Source of the DNA: Akkermansiaceae bacterium
Lineage (GTDB): Bacteria > Verrucomicrobiota > Verrucomicrobiia > Verrucomicrobiales > Akkermansiaceae
Assembly (NCBI GenBank): GCA_903908495.1
Contig: CAIVSK010000077.1
Location: 1 to 50,805 of the forward strand
DNA length: 50,805 bases
Direction: 5' to 3'
The position numbers were made by a program, and so were the translations under genes. Below are positions 1 through 35,262 of the stretch, piece by piece (positions within the stretch are counted from its first letter, which is position 1; each line of letters opens with the position of its first letter). The notes below the pieces were generated by a model, which was not told where the DNA came from, ran no database searches, and saw only the letters and a list, made by a program, of their open reading frames with translations.

Positions 1-2432
1 ACCGCTGGGATGCGCATTTCCCGCGCGGTCACCGCTCCGTGCGAGAGCGGTCCGCCGCTTTCGGTCACCACCGCCGCCGCGCTGTAAAAAAGCGGCGTCC
101 AGGTCGGGTTGGTGGTGCGCGCGACCAGCACAGCCCCTCTGGGGAAACTTGCAAAATCTTCCGGCGTGAGCACCAGGTACACCGGTCCTTCCGCCACCCC
201 GGCACTCCCCGCCAAGCCACTTAGCACATCGCCCGTCTCCGCGTATGCCGCGCCTGCCGCGGCATCGCTCTGGCCCAGAATCCACTCCGGCCGGCGCGCC
301 TTGTCGACCAGATAGGCCGCCTTTTGCTGCCGCACCTGTGCCGCCAGATCCGCCCATGCCTGCGGTGCATCCGTGGTGAGCGCGTGCTCCAACTGTGCCT
401 GATGGGCGAAGAACACATCCATCGCCTCATCCACCACGGCGCGCTGCACCAGGTGCTCGCCAAGCGCACGCAGGCCGCGCCGCAGCACGGGCGTCAGGCG
501 CGTCGTCTGATAGTGCTCCAGGTCATCGAGGCTGGTGTAGGCGCGGGCAAGGCGCAGCAATTCATGGAAGAAGAAATGCAGGTCGCCGGGCAGCTTCGCG
601 AACAAGGTCACCTCGGCCTGTTGGCTGCGGATTTTCAGCTCGCGCTCCTTCTCCGCAGGGGCCAACTCCATCGGCGTCTGCAAGATGAGCCGCAGGTTAT
701 CCATCACAATCCACGGCGCTTCGCCCCAGGTCGCCACATAGGCGTCGAAGTCCACCTCGCGGTGTCCGTGGTCGCGCAGGAACCGCTGGAAGCGGGCGTT
801 GAACTCGGGAAACCCCGCCAGCACCCCGCGCTGGATCAACTCGCGTGAGTTCATCCCGGCGATATCTTCCATCAGCACCGGATCCTTGCGGGCAAGCAAC
901 GCCAGCCCGAACAGCTCCTTGTTGATCTGTCCTGTCTTGGTTTCGCACCACGTCATCAGGTGATCAAACAGCAGTTCTGCGTCCGCAGGACCAATGGCAA
1001 GCTGCAACAGCGCGTGCAGTATCCGATAAATCGTGCCCTGCGCGATGGAGATGGCGATATTGGGCAGAAAATACTGTGCGCCGTGTTCGTTGACAGCAAG
1101 CACATGCCGCCAAAGCTCCAACGGCGTCTTGTCTGCCAGCGGCTCTGCCTGATAGCGGCCCAGCGTGATGAGATAATGGTCCAGATCGCGCATCCAAGCG
1201 ACCGGCAGGTCCTGGACCCAGCCGAATTGCCGGCGCAGGCGCGGGATGGCGGCGCGCAGTTCATCTAACGAAGCAACCGCGAACGGCGCGCGGCGGGCAT
1301 ACAGTTCCACCGCATTCTGGTTGCCATAGATGTAATGCCCGAACATCACAAACCACTTGCCGGAAAAATGCGGGAAATCGAGCAACCCGAACGAATAATT
1401 CAACGAGCGGTGAAACCCCGAGTCCACAAAATCCCAGGTCAGCGGGGTGATCACATTCGGAAAGCGCTCGGCGGATTCGTCGCGGGTCCAGCGCGGCGGA
1501 ATGGTGGTGATCGGCCGCGATTGGAGCAGCCACAAGCGCCCGTCCGCAAACGCCCACTCGATGTCCTGCGGAAACGCATAACTCGCCTCAACCCTGAATA
1601 ACAAATCCGCCAGCTCCGCCAATTGCGCGTCGCTCAGGCTCGGTGCGGCCGCCTCGGCACCGGCAAGGTGGATCTCGCGGGTGCCCGACGCGGCGCTCAC
1701 AATTTGGCGCGACTTGCTGCCGATGTGGGCCGCGCTCACGGCGCGGGTGGACTTGTCGAGAATCCACTGATCCACCTCCCCTTCCCCGCTGACCACCGAT
1801 TCGCCCAGCCCGAAGTTGGCATTGATGACCATTTCGCCAAGCTGGCCATTGACCGGATTGATGCTGAAGCCGACGCCCGCGGATTCACTCGGCACCATTT
1901 GTTGGACGACGACAGCCATCACAGCCAGAGCATGGTCGAAGCCTTGCTGGTGGCGATAGGCAATGGCGCGGTCGGCCCACAGGGACACGAAGCAGCCGCG
2001 CACGCGATCCAACACATCGGCCACGCCCAGCACATTCAGGAATGTCTCGTGTTGGCCGGCGAAGGCGGCTCCCGCGAGATCTTCCATGGTGGATGAGGAG
2101 CGCACCGAAAACGCCGTACCTTGGGCAAACCCTGCGAGTTGTTGCTCGATGGCGGCGGCCGCATGTTGCGGCAGCGGCAAGCCCATGAGTTCCGCCTGCA
2201 ATGTCTCGCTCGCCGCGCGCAGCGCCGCCGCGTCATGGAACGGCAGCGCGCCAACCCGCCGCAACCAACCGCCCGCGCCGCTGATGAATTCACCGTAAAC
2301 CGAGGCGGTGATGACAAAGCCGCGCGGCACGGGGAACCCGCGTTGCGTTAGAATAGCGAGATTGGCCCCTTTGCCACCGCTCAATTCGAGCTGCGTGGCG
2401 AGGGGATTTTCAAACGTGAGGGTCGGGATCAT
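1..2432 (-). CDS. PEP-synthase-like ATP-dependent dikinase, rifampicin-phosphotransferase-type domain order (partial, C-terminus cut)
   Basis: Reading back from an ATG at 2432, an uninterrupted frame runs off the window start (about 810 codons). The N-terminus is a PPDK_N/PEP-synthase ATP-binding domain: GGKGANL at 19-25, SVRSSSTMEDL at 109-119 and FAGQHETFLNV at 124-134. A long middle region (about 340-720) matches nothing I recognise. A swivelling phosphohistidine domain comes last, with ESGGPLSHGAVTARE and the catalytic His at about residue 798. The order ATP domain - substrate domain - His domain is that of rifampicin phosphotransferase, not of PEP synthase, where the His domain is central and a TIM barrel follows. 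The enzyme should therefore pass the ATP beta-phosphate to an unknown acceptor. The start overlaps the end of the PAP2 gene by 23 bp, so the two are probably co-translated. About 50 residues are probably missing. Confidence 0.9.
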   Translation of the reverse strand, partial: MIPTLTFENPLATQLELSGGKGANLAILTQRGFPVPRGFVITASVYGEFISGAGGWLRRVGALPFHDAAALRAASETLQAELMGLPLPQHAAAAIEQQLAGFAQGTAFSVRSSSTMEDLAGAAFAGQHETFLNVLGVADVLDRVRGCFVSLWADRAIAYRHQQGFDHALAVMAVVVQQMVPSESAGVGFSINPVNGQLGEMVINANFGLGESVVSGEGEVDQWILDKSTRAVSAAHIGSKSRQIVSAASGTREIHLAGAEAAAPSLSDAQLAELADLLFRVEASYAFPQDIEWAFADGRLWLLQSRPITTIPPRWTRDESAERFPNVITPLTWDFVDSGFHRSLNYSFGLLDFPHFSGKWFVMFGHYIYGNQNAVELYARRAPFAVASLDELRAAIPRLRRQFGWVQDLPVAWMRDLDHYLITLGRYQAEPLADKTPLELWRHVLAVNEHGAQYFLPNIAISIAQGTIYRILHALLQLAIGPADAELLFDHLMTWCETKTGQINKELFGLALLARKDPVLMEDIAGMNSRELIQRGVLAGFPEFNARFQRFLRDHGHREVDFDAYVATWGEAPWIVMDNLRLILQTPMELAPAEKERELKIRSQQAEVTLFAKLPGDLHFFFHELLRLARAYTSLDDLEHYQTTRLTPVLRRGLRALGEHLVQRAVVDEAMDVFFAHQAQLEHALTTDAPQAWADLAAQVRQQKAAYLVDKARRPEWILGQSDAAAGAAYAETGDVLSGLAGSAGVAEGPVYLVLTPEDFASFPRGAVLVARTTNPTWTPLFYSAAAVVTESGGPLSHGAVTAREMRIPA

Positions 2433-3309
2433 GAATCAGGTATGGGTTGGATGGAGACAGATGGATAGAGCGCTCCCAGCGGTTGGCCACCCACAGTGCA
2501 AAGCCCGCGAGCGCAAAGCCGGCGGCGACATCAGCGAAATAATGGTAGCGCAGATAGATTGTGGCGAGCCACAGCCCGCAGCAGGGCACCAGGTAGAGCC
2601 GGTAGCGCCACCGCGCGTGCTGGCGGTCGAAGCACAGCAGGAAGCACGAGATGGCGCAATGCAGGCTGGGAAACACATCCACACCGTTACTGCCATTGGC
2701 GACGACGTAGGCATTGAAGCGGGTGATGGCCCAACCGCTCAGCGGCACCGTGAACTCGTCCGCCAACGCAAGGTGCGGGCCGCCTGCCGGCACCCACGAG
2801 TAACCGAGAAACCCGATGCCGTAGATGGTGAACATTCCCACCATCAATTTGCGCAACAACGGCAGACCGCGATTGGCATAATAGAACCAGCTCACGAACA
2901 GATAGGGGAAAAACAGCAGGTAACAAAAACTCAGAACCTCGGTGAGCAGCGGCGTGGCCAGCAACCCGGCCCGCCCGCTCAAGGTCATGCCAAACAGCCC
3001 GCGGTCCAATGAGGCGAGCAACGCGTCGCACTTGTGCGCTGCGATCTTGAGCACGACCGAACCCATCAGCGGAAACACCGCGTTCATCGCCACCGGATAG
3101 AACCACAGCCGCACCTGCCAGCGCAGCGTCGTCTCGCGCCGCCAGCACCAGCCAATGACTCCGATGCTTGCTAACAACACACCCAGGAAAAACACCGCGT
3201 CACGATCGAGCGGGCCGACCGCCAGTACCAGCCGCAACCAGGTCACGAGCAGAAACAGCCCGAAGAACCCTTCGTGAGGCAGCAGCTTGGTTTTGAAAAT
3301 CCAGTTCAT
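2410..3309 (-). CDS. PAP2_3-type membrane phosphatase/phosphotransferase
   Basis: The product is 299 residues and strongly hydrophobic, with about six membrane segments. It carries the signature of the PAP2_3 (Aur1/inositol-phosphorylceramide synthase-like) branch: GGPH at 176-179, FPSLHCA at 213-219 (His217 as phosphate acceptor) and RYHYFAD at 254-260 (His256 and Asp260). Members hydrolyse or transfer phosphate-bearing headgroups of lipids at the membrane face. The ATG overlaps the stop of the upstream acyltransferase as ATGA, and its own end overlaps the dikinase start, so all three are translationally coupled. By inference it acts on the same lipid pool as the acyltransferase. It could equally be a plain phosphatidate or undecaprenyl-pyrophosphate phosphatase. 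Confidence 0.85.
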   Translation of the reverse strand: MNWIFKTKLLPHEGFFGLFLLVTWLRLVLAVGPLDRDAVFFLGVLLASIGVIGWCWRRETTLRWQVRLWFYPVAMNAVFPLMGSVVLKIAAHKCDALLASLDRGLFGMTLSGRAGLLATPLLTEVLSFCYLLFFPYLFVSWFYYANRGLPLLRKLMVGMFTIYGIGFLGYSWVPAGGPHLALADEFTVPLSGWAITRFNAYVVANGSNGVDVFPSLHCAISCFLLCFDRQHARWRYRLYLVPCCGLWLATIYLRYHYFADVAAGFALAGFALWVANRWERSIHLSPSNPYLIHDPDPHV

Positions 3310-4595
3310 GGGAATGGCAGGTTATCGAGAACGACCTGATGAAATTCGCGCGCTGGCACCCTCAAATCCCGCTGGACCAGCCCGTTCCACACGGCGACGG
3401 CGAGCTTCTTGGCCCGGTACAGTGCTTTGAGCGCCGCAAGGGTCAGAAGCAGGTAACCTAACAACCAATTCCAACCCGCGATATGGGCGATGGCCGCGGC
3501 CATGCCCGCAAACCACAGCCCCCCTAACGGCAGGCCGACGAGGATCCGCCACAGCGCAACGACGTTGCGCCCGTCGGCGAAGCGGCGCGCCGCCAGCCAG
3601 GCCGCGAGCAGGGGCGGCAGGTTGAGCAGTGCCCCGGCGAGCACCAACGGGCCGAGCACGGCCAACAGCGCGGCATAGCCAAGCCACGGCCCAACCGGAA
3701 ACAGCGGCACCCCCTGGTGCCTCAGCACGCGGTGCGACCCGAGGCGCTGCTGCAGCTCGCTCCAACCCGCCACCACGTCCGCGGGCACACCCGGCTCGAG
3801 TGCCTTGAGCGCGCTAAAATAGCTGCGCGTGCTGCCGAGGGTCGCAACATAGGCGAGGCACTCGGCCTCCTCCTGCGCTGCGGCAGTGGCAAAGTTGCAT
3901 CCGACGTCCTCCAGGGCGCGGGTCATGCGCCGTTTCATTTCCTTGAGGCGGCCCAAGTCGCTCAACCCATCCGGCATATCAGTTAGTATAGCTTCACCCA
4001 CCACCACCTCGGCCTTGCTGCGGAATGCCCAGGCGCGTTCGTAATGAACGCCCAGCGGCACAATGCGCAGCGCCACGCCGTGTGCCAAGGCATCCAGCGC
4101 CAGGCGTGCCGCGCCGCTCTTGAACGGCAGGTGGCACGGTCCCAGCGAACTGGTGCCCTCCGGAAAAACCATCACCTCGCCGCCGTCCGCCAGCACCCGC
4201 ACACACTGGTGCAGCGCCGCCTCGTTATGGCTGCCATCTTCTGCGTCCTGCTTGCGGGCCACTGCAATGCCGGTGAAAAACAGCCGGCCGAAAAAGCCCC
4301 GCAGCAATTGCGTCGAAATCAGATAGATACCGCGCGGCACCACCTGGTGATAGACAAACCCGTCCACCGCACCGTTGCGGTGCAGCACCACATAAAGCAC
4401 CGGACCGCCGGCGGCCAACCGCTGCGGATGCACGACCGTGACCCGCTCGAAGTAAGCGCGCACGCACAGCCAATGGCAACAGCGATACCAGAGCCAGTTA
4501 TTGGGCCCGTCGGGATTTCCGCGCAGCGCGACGCGGCCTGCGAGCACCTGCGCCTCGCCGGGTCGGTCTAAGGGTGTTGGATCAGACGGTTTCAA
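3306..4595 (-). CDS. PlsC-like lysophospholipid acyltransferase with C-terminal membrane domain
   Basis: The 429-residue protein has a PlsC/LPLAT domain in its first half. The catalytic His motif is LHRNGAVDG at 71-79, and FPEGTSS at 144-150 is the glycerol-phosphate binding block. The His-to-Asp spacing is five residues instead of the usual four (HX4D), as far as I can read it. About residues 295-395 hold two or three hydrophobic segments, which ordinary PlsC lacks. It would acylate a lysophospholipid or a related alcohol from acyl-ACP or acyl-CoA at the inner membrane. It follows an LplT-like transporter after a 128-bp gap and is coupled to the PAP2 gene. That pairing recalls LplT-Aas, which retrieves and re-acylates lysophospholipids, here without the acyl-ACP synthetase part. 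Confidence 0.87.
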   Translation of the reverse strand: MKPSDPTPLDRPGEAQVLAGRVALRGNPDGPNNWLWYRCCHWLCVRAYFERVTVVHPQRLAAGGPVLYVVLHRNGAVDGFVYHQVVPRGIYLISTQLLRGFFGRLFFTGIAVARKQDAEDGSHNEAALHQCVRVLADGGEVMVFPEGTSSLGPCHLPFKSGAARLALDALAHGVALRIVPLGVHYERAWAFRSKAEVVVGEAILTDMPDGLSDLGRLKEMKRRMTRALEDVGCNFATAAAQEEAECLAYVATLGSTRSYFSALKALEPGVPADVVAGWSELQQRLGSHRVLRHQGVPLFPVGPWLGYAALLAVLGPLVLAGALLNLPPLLAAWLAARRFADGRNVVALWRILVGLPLGGLWFAGMAAAIAHIAGWNWLLGYLLLTLAALKALYRAKKLAVAVWNGLVQRDLRVPAREFHQVVLDNLPFP

Positions 4596-4723
4596 ACCAA
4601 TTAGAGGTTAGATATATTGCAAGCGCCGGCAGCAGGCATGGTGAATGAGGCTTGAGATTGGGAAGATGAGTGGCCGCAAACTGAGTTTGGTTCAAGCGTG
4701 AATTCCGTACCCCGCCAACCTTA

Positions 4724-5995
4724 TCACACCCCGTCGCCGCGCTGGCACCAGCGGGCGATCATTTGCGGCACGGCCCGCGGCCGCGACCAGGTGACAAAGC
4801 CGCCGGTCAGCGCAGCCACCGCTCCGCAAACCCAGAAGACTTGGTTGTAGCTGAGGTGAGCAGCGCCGGATAGCAATGTCTGGGTCTGGGCAGCGGCAGC
4901 GATGCCGACCCACGACAGCCAACTCGCGGCACCTTGCACCGCTCCCTTGGTCTGCGCCGAGGGCCGGTGTTGCAGCACCGAAACAATCGGCACGATGAAC
5001 AAACCTCCGCCCAGACCTAGCAACGAAAGCGCGGCCGTGAAGGCTGGTCGGCCCAAGCCGGGCCAGCCGAGCCACAGGCCCGCCACAGCCATCAGCGCGG
5101 CACCCGGCGCGATAAGACCATACTCGATGCGACCGCGAGAGAGGCGACCGGCCAGCATGCTGCCGGCGCCGATGCCGAGGCTCAGTGCGGCCTGCAGCCA
5201 CGCCTGTTCGGTGGGTTTGAGGTGGAACACCTTTTGGGCATAGAGAGCGAGGTTGATCTGCACCAGAGTGGCCACAAAGAAGAACGCGGTGTTGCCCCAA
5301 TTGGCACGCCACAGGTCGCGGTCGGCTTTCATCACACGCAGGTTGCTCCAGATCTCGCCCAGAATGTTGGGGTTGAATTTACGGGCTGGATCGGCGGCGG
5401 GAACCTTGAAAATGCCCAGGCTAACCAGACAGCCGACGCTGGCGAGCGCTGCGAGGATGGCCCCCGACCAGACCTCGCGATGAGTGAGGGTTTCGGCCAG
5501 CCAACCGCCGGCAAAGGTGCCCAGAATGATCCCGACGAAGGTGAGCAATTCGAGGATGCCGTTACCTGCGGATAGTTGCGAGGGATGCAACACCTCAGGC
5601 ATGATCCCATACTTGGCCGGGGCGAAAAACGTGCTGTGCACGCCCATCAGGCAGATGGCGGCCAGTTGCAGCGCCGGATGTTCCCAAGCCAGTGCCAGCG
5701 CCGCAAATATCATGATGGCGACCTCACCCAGCTTCACACCGATCATCACCGAACGCTTGCTGCAGCGGTCTGCCAGCCAGCCGCCCACCGTCGAAAACAG
5801 CAGAAACGGCACAGCGAAAAGCAATGACGCCTGCGACGCGAAGCCCTCTTTATCGGCATCGCTCAAGGTGATCGATGCCAGCACCGGAAAGATCACCAGC
5901 CAGCGCAGGGCATTATCGGAGAACGCACCCTGAAACTGGGTGAACATCAGGTTCCAAAAGCCTTTCGGCCAAGACGGAGACGGTTCGTTTTGCAT
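4724..5995 (-). CDS. LplT-like MFS lysophospholipid transporter
   Basis: The product is 423 residues with about 12 hydrophobic segments. The N-terminal FTQFQGAFSDNALRW and the later FAPAKYGIMPEVL are characteristic of the LplT branch of the major facilitator superfamily, and GGWLADRCSKRSVM is the loop 2-3 motif. LplT flips lysophospholipids inward for re-acylation. Its position directly before a PlsC-like acyltransferase supports that role. It follows the YiiX-like gene after 89 bp on the same strand and probably belongs to the same transcript. Other MFS substrates cannot be excluded, but the motif match to the LplT/Aas group is good. Confidence 0.88.
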   Translation of the reverse strand: MQNEPSPSWPKGFWNLMFTQFQGAFSDNALRWLVIFPVLASITLSDADKEGFASQASLLFAVPFLLFSTVGGWLADRCSKRSVMIGVKLGEVAIMIFAALALAWEHPALQLAAICLMGVHSTFFAPAKYGIMPEVLHPSQLSAGNGILELLTFVGIILGTFAGGWLAETLTHREVWSGAILAALASVGCLVSLGIFKVPAADPARKFNPNILGEIWSNLRVMKADRDLWRANWGNTAFFFVATLVQINLALYAQKVFHLKPTEQAWLQAALSLGIGAGSMLAGRLSRGRIEYGLIAPGAALMAVAGLWLGWPGLGRPAFTAALSLLGLGGGLFIVPIVSVLQHRPSAQTKGAVQGAASWLSWVGIAAAAQTQTLLSGAAHLSYNQVFWVCGAVAALTGGFVTWSRPRAVPQMIARWCQRGDGV

Positions 5996-6084
5996 ATGTT
6001 ATGAGGGTTTTCCGAGGGGCATTCGAGAGGGAGGAAGAAGTGTGCCACCCGTTCACCTTGCCGGTGCCGGGTTTCATGAAGTTG

Positions 6085-7641
6085 CTAGACGCCGGCAGGA
6101 TGCCCCCCCAGCAACGGTGCCCTGCGCGCCGGACGCCAACCGCGACGAATCCGCAGCAGCAGCGGCACGATCCGCTTGGCCGCCACCACGTGCGCCTGGC
6201 CGTCGCCGCGCTTGAGGATCAGGCCAATCGGCCGCAACGGCGCGTTTTCGGACCCGCCGGCCCGCGCCAATTCATCGAGTGCCAGATGCACCACATCATC
6301 CCCGCTGAGCGTGAAGCGGCCGAGTCGCTTGACCAGCGGAAACCGGATCGGCCCGCGCTGGTGATAACTGCGATATACCAACTCGGTGCAAACGATGCGA
6401 CTGCTCACGTTGAAGTCGAACTCGAAGTCATAGGGTTTGCCAAGGTGCCCGAACGCCTCGCCCAACGCCGCAGCGAGCTCCCCGTCCGACACGTTGGGGC
6501 GGAGCACGACGACGTGGTCGGCATGCAGGCAGGCAGCCAACGGACAGATGCGCACCCGCGGAGCGACGCCCTCGATGACACAGCCGAGCGGGCCGGCCTG
6601 CTGTGGGACTTGCTCCCAGCGTTTGGCGGCGTGAGGCTGGGTGTGCACCTGGAGTGCCTCGAGCTCGGCGCGCGACCCGAGATAGATCGCCACATGCGAC
6701 CAGAAGCCCGGCAACATCGCCGCACTCAGTTTGCCCTCGGCGCGGCATAACAGAATGTCCCCCGGCCGCAGCTGCGGAAGCAACCCGGCGAGCACCTCTT
6801 CGGTTAGAACGTGCACGGGATTGGGCACGACGTGAATACCGGCGAAGCGCCCGCCCACCAGGGATTGCAGGCCATAGCGGGTCCGCCGCGCGGGACGCAG
6901 GGCATGCCGCCAAACCACATCCCAATTGGATCGCAGGTACCGCAGCAGCGCCCCTAACAAGCTCTTATGGATCACGCCGCGTTTCCGGCGGATGATCTCG
7001 CAGAGCCAGTGCCAATCCGCGTCCAGATCGAGGCTGCGGAACAACCCGCTGCGGCGCACGCCGCCCCAAAAGCGGTCGGCGCGCAACAACGCCCGGTAAT
7101 TGAACAGCGAACTATAGCCATTGCGCACGTCATCAAAGAAGCCGGCTTCGAGGTCGAATTTGGCATCCGGTTCGTTGAGCTTGGCGCGCAACAGCGGGTG
7201 GCGCTCCGCAACGTGGATGAATTTGAGCGACTTGGCATAGAGGACCAACGCGGCGGCAAACGCTACCAAGAAGCCGGGAGTGCGCAGGCTCTCGTCCTCG
7301 ATCTGCGCAAACTCACGATAGCGGAAAATGATGTCATAGGCAGCGAATCGATAGTTGCGGTATGCCAGCAACGCCTGCCGGACGCGGTCGTCCTCGTCCG
7401 GCGTGAAGTAGCCGCGCTGCGCGGCGGCGGCCAGCACCGGAGTGTGATCGAGCAGATCTTCCAGCCGGTTGAGCCCGTCGAGAATTTCGCGAAACGTGTC
7501 GCGGTCGGCCAGCAACTGCGCCTGCGCAGCGCTGCCGGCGAGCGCCGGGGCGGTAGGCTTCAGACCACTCGGGGGCCGCAGGCGTGGCGCTGTCATGGGA
7601 CGTGGTAACCGGTCTAAAGGCAGCTCGAGCAGCCCCACCAT
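6085..7641 (-). CDS. YiiX/YebB-like permuted NlpC/P60 (LRAT-clade) protein with long N-terminal helical domain
   Basis: The 518-residue protein has a C-terminal papain-fold domain of the circularly permuted NlpC/P60 type. PGDILL is at 293-298, WSHVAIYLG at 315-323 (catalytic His316), CVIEGVAP at 354-361, and VCTELVYRSY at 417-426 (catalytic Cys418). In this permuted clade His precedes Cys; the clade includes YiiX/YebB and lecithin:retinol acyltransferase. The first 280 residues form a mostly helical region rich in aromatic and charged residues that I do not recognise, with a possible membrane-associated helix near 122-136. ATG16 is an alternative start. It lies at the head of the lipid-gene run, 89 bp before the LplT-like gene. 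Lipid hydrolase, acyltransferase or peptidoglycan hydrolase activity are all possible. Confidence 0.85.
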   Translation of the reverse strand: MVGLLELPLDRLPRPMTAPRLRPPSGLKPTAPALAGSAAQAQLLADRDTFREILDGLNRLEDLLDHTPVLAAAAQRGYFTPDEDDRVRQALLAYRNYRFAAYDIIFRYREFAQIEDESLRTPGFLVAFAAALVLYAKSLKFIHVAERHPLLRAKLNEPDAKFDLEAGFFDDVRNGYSSLFNYRALLRADRFWGGVRRSGLFRSLDLDADWHWLCEIIRRKRGVIHKSLLGALLRYLRSNWDVVWRHALRPARRTRYGLQSLVGGRFAGIHVVPNPVHVLTEEVLAGLLPQLRPGDILLCRAEGKLSAAMLPGFWSHVAIYLGSRAELEALQVHTQPHAAKRWEQVPQQAGPLGCVIEGVAPRVRICPLAACLHADHVVVLRPNVSDGELAAALGEAFGHLGKPYDFEFDFNVSSRIVCTELVYRSYHQRGPIRFPLVKRLGRFTLSGDDVVHLALDELARAGGSENAPLRPIGLILKRGDGQAHVVAAKRIVPLLLRIRRGWRPARRAPLLGGHPAGV

Positions 7642-7841: not shown

Positions 7842-9992
7842 CTAACTGCGGCGGGTCTTGCGCCACTGAGCCAAGGTCTTGAGGAACGCGCCGATGAAAC
7901 GCTGGACCTTGGCCGCGCCAATGCCGGGCACGCACATGGCCTCCTCGGAGGTGGCCGGGCGGTAGCGGGCGAGCGCTTCGAGTGTCTTGTTATTGAAAAC
8001 CACGTAGGGCGGCAAGCCCTCGCGCTTGGCGATGCTGCTGCGGAGGTCCCGCAGCAGTGAGTATAACTCCGCATCGAACCCGTGGTCCTGCAGGGCGATT
8101 TCCTGGCCGCCGGTGCCGGATTCCGGCCACATCAGGGTGAACTGCGCTTCGCCTCGCATCACGCGGTCGCCCAGTGGTGTTAGAGTCAGCAACGGATACT
8201 CGCCGCTGACGGTGAGCACCAGCCCGGCATCGGTGAGCGAGCGCATCAGCGCGTTGAGGTAGCCGACGCCCTTGTCCTTGAGGATGCCGTAGGTGCTGAG
8301 CTGGTCCAGCCCGACGGTTAGAACCTCCTGCGAGCGGCTGCCGGAGAGCATTTGGACAATGCGGCCGCGGCCATAGCGGCCCTCCCAGCCGGCGCTGCCG
8401 CGGCGGGACATGCGCGCCACCCCGCTGAGGGCCTTTTGCACCACCAGCAGTTCCTCGGCGGTGGGCGCGCGCAACTCGCCGCCGCCTAGTTCACGACACA
8501 CGTCGCAACAGCCGCAATCCCCCTCCCCCTGCTCACCGAAGTAGTTGAGAATCCACCGCTGGCGGCAGGTCCTGGAGTAACACATTTCCACCATGGCCTT
8601 GAGCTTTTCGTGGTCCCGCCGGTCCTTCTCCTCGATGGCGGTTTCATCCAGCTTGAGCTGGCGGGCCAGCACCTCCGGTTGCAGCAGGCGGGTGCCGCGC
8701 ATCCGCCGGCCGGGCACATCAAAGCGCTCGATGTAGCCGGCCCGCGCCAGCACGATCAGGGCGCTGCCCACCGCCATCGAGTTTTTGACGTCGGCGTTGG
8801 CCGCGATTTCCTCCAAGGTGCGGTGCACCTCGTAGTCTTTGTCCGCCTCGTTCAGCAAATACTGATAGATCGTGCGGATCACCGCCACCGTCGGGTTGGC
8901 ACCCTCGATGAAAAACTCCTGCGTCCGGGTGTCGGCATAGTTGAACAACAATTCGCACACCGCGCTTTCTCCGTCGCGGCCGGCGCGGCCGGCTTCCTGG
9001 TAGTATGCCTCGACGCTGCCGGGCACCTCGTAGTGAATGACGAAGCGCACGTCCGCGCGGTCGATGCCCATGCCAAAGGCATTGGTGGCCACCGCCACAT
9101 CGGCCTTGCGCTGGATGAAGACCTCCTGCGCCCGCTCGCGCTCGGAATCGCTCATGCCGCCATGATAGGCCACGCACTTGAAGCCCCAACTGGCGAGAGT
9201 CTCGGACACCGAGTCGACCTTCTTGCGGGTGGCGCAATACACGATGCCGGTGCGATGGGCGGTGATGATGGCCCGCATCCGCTCGTTTTTCTGTGACACC
9301 TTTTCCACCGCCGCGATGGTCAGCGACAGGTTCGGCCGCGAGAACCCGCTGACCTGCTCGAAGGGCACGCGCAGGCCCAGCACTGAGCTGATGTCATCCC
9401 TGACAATCGGGGTGGCGGTGGCGGTGAACGCGACGCACTGCGGGTGGCCGAGTTTTTCCAAGGCCTTGCCCAGGCGCAAGTAGTCCGGGCGGAAATCGTG
9501 CCCCCACTGGCTCAGGCAGTGGGCCTCGTCCACCGCGAAGAGCGACACCTCCACTCCGGCCAGGGCGTTAAGAAAACTCTCGGCGCGAAACCGCTCCGGA
9601 GCGATGTAGACGAGCTTGTAGGCGCCGTTGCGCATCGCGTCCAAACGCTCGCGCTGCTCCGGCCATGACAGCGTCGAGTTGATCATCGTGGCATCGATGC
9701 CGCGCGCCACCAGCGCATCCACCTGATCCTTCATCAAGGCGATCAAGGGTGAAACCACCAGCGTCACCCCGCCGAAACACAGCGCCGGGATTTGAAAACA
9801 CAGCGATTTACCGCCGCCGGTGGGCATCACCACCAAGCCGTCGCGGCCCGCGACGATGTGTGCGATGACCTCCTCCTGCCCGTCCAAAAACCCGGAAAAC
9901 CCGAAATGCCGCTTAAGCGCCTCATGCGGCGTGGCGACCAGGGGTCTGGTCGCGGAAACGGGTATGGCTGCGGAGTCGCTCATGGCTTGCAC
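7842..9992 (-). CDS. recQ: ATP-dependent DNA helicase RecQ
   Basis: The 716-residue length is typical of long RecQ forms. Walker A PTGGGKS is at 57-63, the DEAH box at 155-158 is followed by the RecQ aromatic loop CLSQWGHDFRPDY, and motif VI QEAGRAGRD is present. The RecQ-C-terminal zinc site shows as CYSRTCRQ and DCGCCDVC, followed by a winged helix and an HRDC domain at about 625-705 (ending PGIGAAKVQRFIGAFL). RecQ unwinds DNA 3' to 5' in recombination and fork repair in the cytoplasm. ATG4 (MSDSAA) is as likely a start as the ATG used here. It is same-strand with dgt (39 bp upstream) and the lipid genes downstream. Confidence 0.97.
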   Translation of the reverse strand: MQAMSDSAAIPVSATRPLVATPHEALKRHFGFSGFLDGQEEVIAHIVAGRDGLVVMPTGGGKSLCFQIPALCFGGVTLVVSPLIALMKDQVDALVARGIDATMINSTLSWPEQRERLDAMRNGAYKLVYIAPERFRAESFLNALAGVEVSLFAVDEAHCLSQWGHDFRPDYLRLGKALEKLGHPQCVAFTATATPIVRDDISSVLGLRVPFEQVSGFSRPNLSLTIAAVEKVSQKNERMRAIITAHRTGIVYCATRKKVDSVSETLASWGFKCVAYHGGMSDSERERAQEVFIQRKADVAVATNAFGMGIDRADVRFVIHYEVPGSVEAYYQEAGRAGRDGESAVCELLFNYADTRTQEFFIEGANPTVAVIRTIYQYLLNEADKDYEVHRTLEEIAANADVKNSMAVGSALIVLARAGYIERFDVPGRRMRGTRLLQPEVLARQLKLDETAIEEKDRRDHEKLKAMVEMCYSRTCRQRWILNYFGEQGEGDCGCCDVCRELGGGELRAPTAEELLVVQKALSGVARMSRRGSAGWEGRYGRGRIVQMLSGSRSQEVLTVGLDQLSTYGILKDKGVGYLNALMRSLTDAGLVLTVSGEYPLLTLTPLGDRVMRGEAQFTLMWPESGTGGQEIALQDHGFDAELYSLLRDLRSSIAKREGLPPYVVFNNKTLEALARYRPATSEEAMCVPGIGAAKVQRFIGAFLKTLAQWRKTRRS

Positions 9993-32696: not shown

Positions 32697-33593
32697 CTAC
32701 TGCGGGGCCGCGGCGGGCGATTCCGGTGCTACCGGAGCCTCCGGCGTGGCGGGCGCAACCGAAGCATCCGGCGTGGCGGGTGCAACCGAAGCATCCGGCG
32801 CGGTGGGCGCAACCGAAGCATCCGGCGCGGTGGGCGCAACCGAAGCATCCGGCGTGGCGGGCGCAACCGAAGCATCCGGCGTGGCGGGCGCAACCGAAGC
32901 ATCCGGCGTGGCGGGCGCAACCGAAGCATCCGGCGTGGTGGGCGCTGTGGGAGCGAAGGGTGACTCTTCTGCGGGAGCGGCGGCTGGAGCCGGGGGCGCT
33001 TGGGCATCGTGGATGGCTTTGAGCGTCTTGCCTTTGGCTTGAATGGCACTAAACAGCCAGCCGCCGGTTTCCCGGTAGTGGCGGACCGAAAGTCCGGCAA
33101 AAAACGCCAGCAGCGCAAACAGCAACAGCCCCACAAAAATCGTAAAACCCTTGCCTCCACCAGCTGGCTCAGCGGCGTGCTTGTGCGGTGCGGACTCGCG
33201 CCCCGCCAGCGATTCCGCAGCCGCCGGTGCCATCTCCACCTCCCTGCGGTCCGGTAACTCATCCAGCACTTTTTCGCGCCGCAGCGCGTCGCGCTCCTCG
33301 TCGCTCAATTGAAAATCAAACGCCACATCGCCCAGCCTCACGGTGGCACCATGGCGCAACGCGATCGTATCGCTGCGCCGGCCATCCAATTTGATGCCGT
33401 TGGTCGAGCCCAGATCGCGCAATTCATAACCACCTTCGATGCGCAGCATCTCGGCGTGCCGGACTGAGATGGAGCCGCACTCGATGGCAATATCATTCTC
33501 GCTGCCCCGCCCGATCATTACCACCTGCCGGTCCAGCGGGAAACGATATGGCTGAGGGGTCTTGTCCGGGACGGTGATGGTTACGCGGGGCAT
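32697..33593 (-). CDS. FHA-domain membrane protein with periplasmic repeat tail
   Basis: The 298-residue product opens with an FHA phosphothreonine-binding domain: [28 protein letters not shown] and [11 protein letters not shown] linker and one membrane helix ([20 protein letters not shown], about 150-170) lead to a Pro/Ala-rich tail. The tail holds seven 9-residue units of the form PDASVAPAT or PDASVAPTA. The FHA part would be cytoplasmic and the tail outside. It diverges from the bactofilin gene over 118 bp. A Ser/Thr kinase partner is not in the window. Confidence 0.9.
32743..32931 (-). repeat. 27-bp coding tandem repeat (7 copies)
   Basis: Seven full 27-bp units start at 32743 and every 27 bases to 32905, with a diverged eighth at 32932. 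Units 3 and 4 differ by two bases from the rest and are identical to each other, which indicates recent slippage-type duplication. They encode the FHA protein tail. Confidence 0.95.
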
Positions 33594-35130: not shown

Positions 35131-35262
35131 AAATTCTAAATCATAAATTCTAAATCATAAATCATAAATCATAAATTCTAAACGAAGAGAAAGACTTCGC
35201 GACTTGGGTTCAGCTCTTTCTCTGCTCGTCGTTTAGAATTTCATACTTAGAATTTAGAATTT
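35131..35262. repeat. AT-rich palindromic element inside the moxR-bat operon
   Basis: The gap between moxR and DUF58 is strikingly AT-rich. AAATTCTAAATCAT-type units repeat at the left. AAATTCTAAACGA (35173-35185) plus AGAGAAAG pair with CTTTCTCT (35216-35223) and TCGTTTAGAATTT (35229-35241), with a five-base bulge, and TTAGAATTTAGAATTT closes the right side. The whole resembles a folded miniature element. Confidence 0.85.

Follow-up and report, generated by a model that had tools for sequence, protein, structure and literature searches.

A conserved acyltransferase, PAP2 and dikinase gene core with recurrent lysolipid-handling partners as a candidate membrane-lipid remodelling unit

We analysed a 50,805-nucleotide stretch of DNA from an Akkermansiaceae bacterium (GCA_903908495.1, contig CAIVSK010000077.1, positions 1 to 50,805; referred to as the window in this text), whose first 7641 bases carry five neighbouring genes on the minus strand. 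An initial annotation had taken these genes for a single undescribed lipid remodelling pathway. Comparison of gene neighbourhoods across genomes shows that the conserved unit is a core of a putative acyltransferase, a PAP2 family protein and a dikinase, with C92, LplT, Aas, LCAT and acyl-AMP-ligase genes as recurrent partners. The idea of one fixed five-gene pathway thus had to be given up: C92 and LplT are absent near most cores, and what we find is a core of three genes whose lysolipid partners are exchangeable. The lipid reading of the island itself has comparative support and can be called partly supported. On balance we lean towards reading the island as a unit for membrane-lipid remodelling, with the three-gene core as its basis.

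The five genes appear in the list of open reading frames (ORFs) of window positions 1–7641 as follows, in order of transcription:

6085..7641, minus strand: C92/YiiX-family permuted papain-fold protein, 518 aa; PF05708 E = 1.2e-17, residues 290–450
4724..5995, minus strand: LplT-like MFS transporter, 423 aa; MFS_1 E = 8.7e-28
3306..4595, minus strand: PF01553 acyltransferase, core gene 1, 429 aa from a TTG start (start uncertain); E = 3.2e-13
2410..3309, minus strand: PAP2_3 (AUR1-like) membrane phosphatase/phosphotransferase, core gene 2, 299 aa; PF14378 E = 1.9e-17
1..2432, minus strand: RPH-type dikinase, core gene 3, first 810 of 840 aa; PPDK_N 3.8e-84, PEP-utilisers 1.1e-14

All five Pfam assignments lie above the curated cut-offs, so the families first proposed can be kept; the PAP2_3 protein also matches PAP2. 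As annotated, the last three genes overlap, the acyltransferase and PAP2_3 genes by 4 bp (3306–3309) and the PAP2_3 and dikinase genes by 23 bp (2410–2432), while the gaps upstream measure 89 bp (C92 to LplT) and 128 bp (LplT to acyltransferase). One correction concerns the dikinase gene, which is truncated at the window edge. Contig C319 matches window bases 1–141 exactly and supplies (L006, to base 229) the remaining residues and the stop codon, giving a full length of 840 aa. The ORF that follows on C319 is convergent, and the unit therefore appears to end with the dikinase.

The core was recovered in two ways. Among 59 genomes of relatives, 24 contained some acyltransferase match; it was long and close in three of them besides the window's own genome (80, 57 and 44% identity), the others being weaker and shorter. 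In all three close relatives the acyltransferase gene is followed by PAP2 and then by the dikinase. In addition, a collection of 84,980 genomes was searched with the acceptor domain of the dikinase alone (alignment A4), by means of two 8-residue motifs and with no use of neighbouring genes. This search matched 130 stretches, 117 of which encode relatives, and the locus counts given here refer to the best 80 of these 117. Because the two 8-residue patterns define the loci, more distant dikinases will have been missed. Many loci are contigs of metagenome-assembled genomes (MAGs), and several of them end before the upstream genes.

In 77 of the 80 loci, iterative profile searches detected an acyltransferase match upstream of the dikinase and on its strand, ending no more than 1544 bp from the match to the dikinase. 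In the three loci without it (L045, L056 and L092) the contig breaks off there, and L046 and L064 are truncated in part. In a Thermoanaerobaculia MAG, acyltransferase and dikinase even share one open frame of 1451 aa (L114:7253-11608). A PAP2 gene is found near the dikinase in 60 loci; the 20 loci that lack it comprise 14 from Actinomycetota, L055, L067 and the cut loci L045, L056, L064 and L092. The most frequent gene order is acyltransferase, PAP2, dikinase (43 loci), followed by acyltransferase, dikinase (17) and PAP2, acyltransferase, dikinase (7). C92 precedes the most frequent order in five loci and LCAT does so in three; one locus each shows acyltransferase, dikinase, PAP2 and PAP2, acyltransferase, C92, dikinase, and three are cut. 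Co-location is thus kept even though gene order is not. The pairwise distances of the three core proteins correlate with r = 0.89–0.91 over 56 of the 80 loci, a value reached in none of 1000 permutations (24 loci were dropped because a protein was missing or short). This looks like what a jointly inherited unit would produce.

According to the record titles, the loci come from ten phyla: Verrucomicrobiota, Pseudomonadota, Actinomycetota, Acidobacteriota, Planctomycetota, Gemmatimonadota, Elusimicrobiota, Chlamydiota, Synergistota and Thermodesulfobacteriota. The three-gene core including PAP2 occurs in nine of them, all but Actinomycetota. Cultured carriers include Methylomonas sp. LW13 (L073) and, for the version without PAP2, Brevibacterium; Chthoniobacter flavus (L041) has a copy of the dikinase as well. 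The initial annotation would have been undermined if the five genes were neighbours in this genome only. This is not the case, since all five families occur together in four of 81 loci (the 80 plus the window), namely the window, the same-genus genome G019 (L040) and two Sideroxydans loci (L052, L057), a count to be read with the truncation of several other loci before their upstream genes. Within the window's own phylum, the acceptor domain was found at E ≤ 1e-30 in 3 of 387 sampled genomes, including the window's own and G235, where the match is partial. The predicted module is widespread yet patchy and sparse. A quick dikinase tree, made without bootstraps, requires 12 changes of the ten phylum labels (minimum 9, mean after shuffling 40.3), which suggests that the module mostly follows phyla and that cross-phylum transfer was limited or old; the Acidobacteriota are scattered, with four changes for four entries. 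L045, L056, L064 and L092 were left out of this tree, and L077, which has an in-frame stop, out of alignment A5.

Other carriers of the module were also considered. A phage-borne module was rejected, as 58 viral stretches matched a pattern and none was confirmed. A plasmid-borne module was rejected as well: 11 plasmid records matched a Providencia dikinase at 25–35% identity, with at least 80% query coverage in one of the 11. Three of these plasmid dikinases have no annotated acyltransferase or PAP2 within 2.5–3 kb, a weak control given that PLSDB annotation is incomplete and the Nonomuraea stretch unannotated. A role in anti-phage defence was discarded because none of the five proteins had a PADLOC match at E 0.01.

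The dikinase has the architecture of the rifampin phosphotransferase RPH, with an ATP-grasp domain, an acceptor domain and a C-terminal swivel histidine (His798, window 39–41). Its structural model (mean pLDDT 88.6, built with an alignment of 34 sequences) gave a full-length Foldseek match to Listeria RPH (E 1.9e-40), and VIA aligned 740 residues to RPH (PDB 5hv1; also 5fbs) with Z 38.5. The root-mean-square deviation of 21 in this comparison is ascribed to domain movement or a different placement of the domains in the model. Below RPH, PEP synthase, HpeI and PPDK, the listed Foldseek and VIA hits are mostly ATP-grasp enzymes that match the first domain only. The swivel histidine motif is present in 78 of the 80 loci and was not found in L064, which runs into the contig end, or in L066. 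Since the protein ends 42 residues after the swivel histidine, it does not have the PEP synthase layout of a central histidine domain and a C-terminal pyruvate domain, and it scores 325.6 bits against the 598 required by the PEP synthase equivalog NF005057.

The acceptor site differs from that of RPH. There the second transfer, to rifampin, depends on Arg666 and Glu667, and Lys670 belongs to the same hydrogen-bond network (PMC4844700). In the profile alignment, Asp636, Asp637 and His640 of the dikinase stand at these three positions. They belong to an LDDxEHYxTTR motif (LDDLEHYQTTR at window 498–530) that is present in all 80 loci. Three of three outgroup dikinases (from Mycobacterium branderi, Nonomuraea and contig C154 of the window's own genome) keep an arginine there or one column away, as R-D, R-E and R-E. 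The dikinase clade should therefore share the RPH chemistry up to the phosphohistidine, with a changed acceptor site. Accordingly, the label RPH-type holds for the architecture and fails for the acceptor residues and for the NCBIfam profile RIF_Ptrans_rph, which matches with E 3.9e-98 and 329.9 bits, well below the cut-off of 999 (the window copy lacks the last 30 residues).

These observations largely refute the idea that the dikinase is a rifampin-type, antibiotic-inactivating phosphotransferase with lipid genes as chance neighbours. The RPH match over the whole length and the strong E value speak for it; the Asp-Asp substitution in 80 of 80 loci, the missed cut-off and the acyltransferase match upstream in every uncut locus make it very improbable, and we rejected rifampin resistance as the function. 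The literature describes a large group of RPH-type dikinases that still await exploration of their substrate affinities (PMC4844700). The C154 paralogue (L007:859-4542 in genome G000) is a second RPH-type frame, 1227 aa long and extended at its C terminus by a hydrophobic stretch. It retains Arg-Glu at the acceptor motif; among the listed ORFs of at least 200 aa around it, no acyltransferase or PAP2 was recognised by eye. In six loci (L044, L077, L087, L090, L111 and L117) the dikinase match is spread over two or three frames or pieces, an apparent result of decay or assembly error.

The dikinase ends also match the profiles of the prodigiosin ligases PigC (E 8.9e-83) and RedH (E 1e-85). This likeness of the terminal domains would fit a role in specialised metabolism, with the dikinase acting as a PigC/RedH-like ligase or small-molecule kinase, the acyltransferase adding a fatty chain, PAP2 dephosphorylating, and C92 and LplT handling lysolipids that arise through the product or its export. 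The patchy distribution, with three of the 387 genomes of the phylum (the window's own among them, and one match partial), is in line with this, as is the Rouxiella glucoselipid, for which a three-gene set including a PlsC-like acyltransferase and a phosphatase is described (PMC12299268). However, the scores fall far under the cut-offs (278.6 of 1300 bits for PigC, 288.4 of 1350 for RedH), and the chosen few neighbouring ORFs that were scanned contained no natural-product synthetase; they belong to lipid-type, ankyrin or esterase families or to none. We therefore regard a specialised metabolite as unlikely.

The acyltransferase belongs to PF01553 (50.1 bits, cut-off 23). The catalytic motif of PlsC is HX4D, while yeast-type glycerol-3-phosphate/dihydroxyacetone-phosphate acyltransferases have an HX5D-like spacing. 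In the window protein we find HX5D (HRNGAVD, window 4362–4382), and it scores 39 of the 102.95 bits required by the PlsC model TIGR00530. Within the first 110 residues of each match, HxNxxxD occurs in 73 of the 77 acyltransferases and HX4D in none. Two strings of HX5D form (HPDLRED and HVLDLSD) were judged to be chance and not counted, and two partial acyltransferases lack the region. The description PlsC-like is thus right as to family and wrong as to the motif.

The second core protein belongs to PAP2_3 (PF14378, 64.1 bits, cut-off 27), with the motifs PSLH (window 2659–2670) and HYFAD (2530–2544); the corresponding PS(L/F)H and H(Y/W)xxD are found in all 60 PAP2 matches. The nearest solved structures are those of the AUR1 inositol phosphorylceramide synthase, a member of the same family. 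The E value of this match is just 2.4e-4, however, and the bacterial phosphoinositol dihydroceramide synthase model gives 22.5 of 480 bits.

Among the partners, the C92 protein meets PF05708 with 64.9 bits (cut-off 27). A histidine (GFWxH) followed by a cysteine (VCT(E/S)L) is invariant in seven of seven aligned relatives, and His316 (6694–6696) and Cys418 (6388–6390) form the probable catalytic dyad. The domain and the order of these residues link the protein to the YiiX, LnsA and LRAT enzymes. It differs from them by an extra N-terminal half of about 280 residues, helical in a low-confidence model (mean pLDDT 70.5, pTM 0.47; not used for a fold search), and by a score of 28.2 bits where the YiiX equivalog requires 216. 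A fatty acid was seen in the pocket of YiiX (PMC3142127), LnsA, which has been likened to the YiiX/C92 fold, is required together with LnsB for lipoprotein N-acylation (PMC7387801), and YiiX-type enzymes in general bind lipids or are linked to them (PMC3142127, PMC7387801, PMC12994826).

The transporter is nearest to the MFS half of the fused acyl-ACP-phospholipid O-acyltransferase PRK08633 (1.4e-85, 288 bits over 405 residues, below the cut-off of that profile) and matches LplT itself (PRK11195) with 3.8e-34 and 118.5 of 297 bits, again under the cut-off. As in the Aas-LplT system of E. coli (PMC11416262), an LplT-like transporter adjoins an acyltransferase. The window differs from that system in having no Aas, in the HX5D core acyltransferase and in the additional C92, PAP2_3 and dikinase genes. 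Aas, with which LplT is usually coupled, stands in the G019 cluster and not in the window.

In G019, one strand carries C92, an Aas-type gene (765 aa, acyltransferase plus AMP-binding), LplT, a 2392-aa ORF, acyltransferase, PAP2 and dikinase; C92 is 80% and LplT 94.5% identical to the window proteins. The contig is the record returned as L040. The 2392-aa ORF (L035:10540-17718), between LplT and the core, has no Pfam match, and no match to it was found in the window's own genome. The gene order of G019 recurs in Sideroxydans L057, from C92, Aas and LplT through an unmatched ORF to acyltransferase, PAP2 and dikinase, and the Aas of L057 is 50.7% identical to a Klebsiella gene annotated as aas. 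L052 has the same gene set, with an ankyrin-repeat gene in the gap. The C92 ORFs of L057 and L052 are of a short type (226 and 270 aa). LplT stands beside Aas in G019, L052, L057, L069, L070 and L075. With just 89 bp between its C92 and LplT genes, the window looks like such a cluster (C92, Aas, LplT, an intervening ORF and the core) that lacks Aas.

Further partners recur beside the core, and the link to lysolipid handling made in the initial annotation is supported by the LplT, Aas, C92 and LCAT genes predicted there. In nine of the 80 loci an LplT-like match falls within 6 kb of the dikinase (in three of them on the other strand), and in one more it is 8.5 kb away; in L071 the transporter is fused to the core acyltransferase. 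Three enterobacterial loci have LCAT immediately before the core, and in five Brevibacterium loci an AMP-ligase lies upstream; a single locus of either kind was checked against Pfam and the others were assigned by similarity.

It could be argued that only the three-gene core is functional, and that C92 and LplT are chance neighbours within the genus, as both are missing from most core loci. Against this, the full C92-Aas-LplT arrangement recurs in G019 and Sideroxydans, and C92 sits inside the core run of the acidobacterium L105. On the dikinase tree, the LplT label changes five times and the C92 label six times (L040 being scored by G019), counts in which gains are not separable from losses. 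We consider chance neighbourhood rather improbable.

The favoured reading, a remodelling unit built on the core, can be set out in five steps. On the outer face, C92 (LCAT in Providencia) would take an acyl chain from a phospholipid and leave a lysophospholipid. LplT would flip this lysolipid inward, where Aas, or in the window possibly the core acyltransferase, would re-acylate it. The PAP2_3 enzyme would remove or exchange the phospho-headgroup and so yield a lipid alcohol. The dikinase would transfer a phosphate from ATP via its swivel histidine to this alcohol (mono- or diacylglycerol-like), releasing AMP and inorganic phosphate. Finally, the acyltransferase would acylate the product or its precursor. 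It has been described that Lnt leaves lysophosphatidylethanolamine and that LplT-Aas flips and re-acylates lysophospholipids (PMC11416262); together with YiiX and LnsA, they suggest a logic of supply and repair. A lipid alcohol as dikinase acceptor would be the weakest step and the joint lipid function of the group the strongest point. Most likely, a lipid alcohol is what the dikinase would phosphorylate.

A simpler scheme is a plain salvage loop: lysolipids brought in by LplT would be re-acylated by the acyltransferase, PAP2 would act as an ordinary phosphatase of lipids, and the dikinase would turn diacylglycerol back into phosphatidate as DgkA does, though with release of AMP. It agrees with the LplT/Aas partners and with the PAP2_3 and PF01553 assignments, and it needs no new lipid. 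It leaves unexplained, however, why acyltransferase and dikinase are paired in Actinomycetota without PAP2 or LplT, and why a costly swivel dikinase should be used, so that we think it improbable to much the same degree as chance neighbourhood of the partners.

Several points weigh against the remodelling reading. The substrates of all five proteins are predictions. Since Asp-Asp replaces the Arg-Glu of RPH, alcohol phosphorylation is not simply transferable from that enzyme. PAP2 is absent from 14 of 14 scorable Actinomycetota loci and from L055 and L067, and it is short or weak in L063 and L066. The acyltransferase match covers only 41 residues in L053 (2e-5) and scores 17.7 in L094, where the Pfam cut-off is 23; the assignment in Actinomycetota thus rests on iterative profiles trained on the same loci. 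Shared species history would also be expected to raise the distance correlations of the core proteins. LplT-like matches were found near just 10 and C92 near just 8 of the 80 loci (six long, two short). No Aas is present in the window, so LplT does not stand beside Aas there; the best Aas match of the genome, on another contig and next to what we take to be trpA, is 29–33% identical to the two cluster Aas queries. Finally, co-transcription of the island genes is suggested by their spacing, and a promoter scan gave no more than shuffled sequence does, with two promoter-like sites against 1.6 expected, both of them located on the plus strand. The terminator scan gave 11 terminator-like sites where 9.2 were expected.

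Two diverged genes, presumably recQ helicases, flank the island (window 7842–9992, minus strand, and C319 1666–3957 in L006, minus strand). They are 49% identical over 349 residues and 32% over 280. C319 runs in the reverse orientation to the window, which places the two genes on opposite strands. Elsewhere in the window, eight 27-bp units (95% matches, 32731–32945) encode a repeated ATPDASVAP within ORF 32697–33593, which we assume to be an FHA-domain protein, and an AT-rich 14-bp tandem array of about 3.7 copies lies between two ORFs at 35131–35182.

Among the matches listed in the open PMC literature, no title or abstract contains this gene set, which is no proof of absence. As a tentative proposal, possible though short of probable, the dikinase clade with the LDDxEHYxTTR motif, the HX5D acyltransferase and the AUR1-like transferase may make or recycle an undescribed phospholipid in many phyla. 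The acceptor would be a lipid alcohol, namely monoacylglycerol, diacylglycerol or a lipid akin to them, and C92 or LCAT, LplT and Aas would supply acyl chains and clear the by-product. The clade has an acyltransferase in every uncut locus (77 of 80) and repeatedly genes for lysolipid transport and acyl transfer, and this company suggests a concrete substrate class for an orphan kinase group. Verrucomicrobiota, Pseudomonadota and other phyla, cultured strains among them, may thus possess a lipid pathway that has gone unrecognised.

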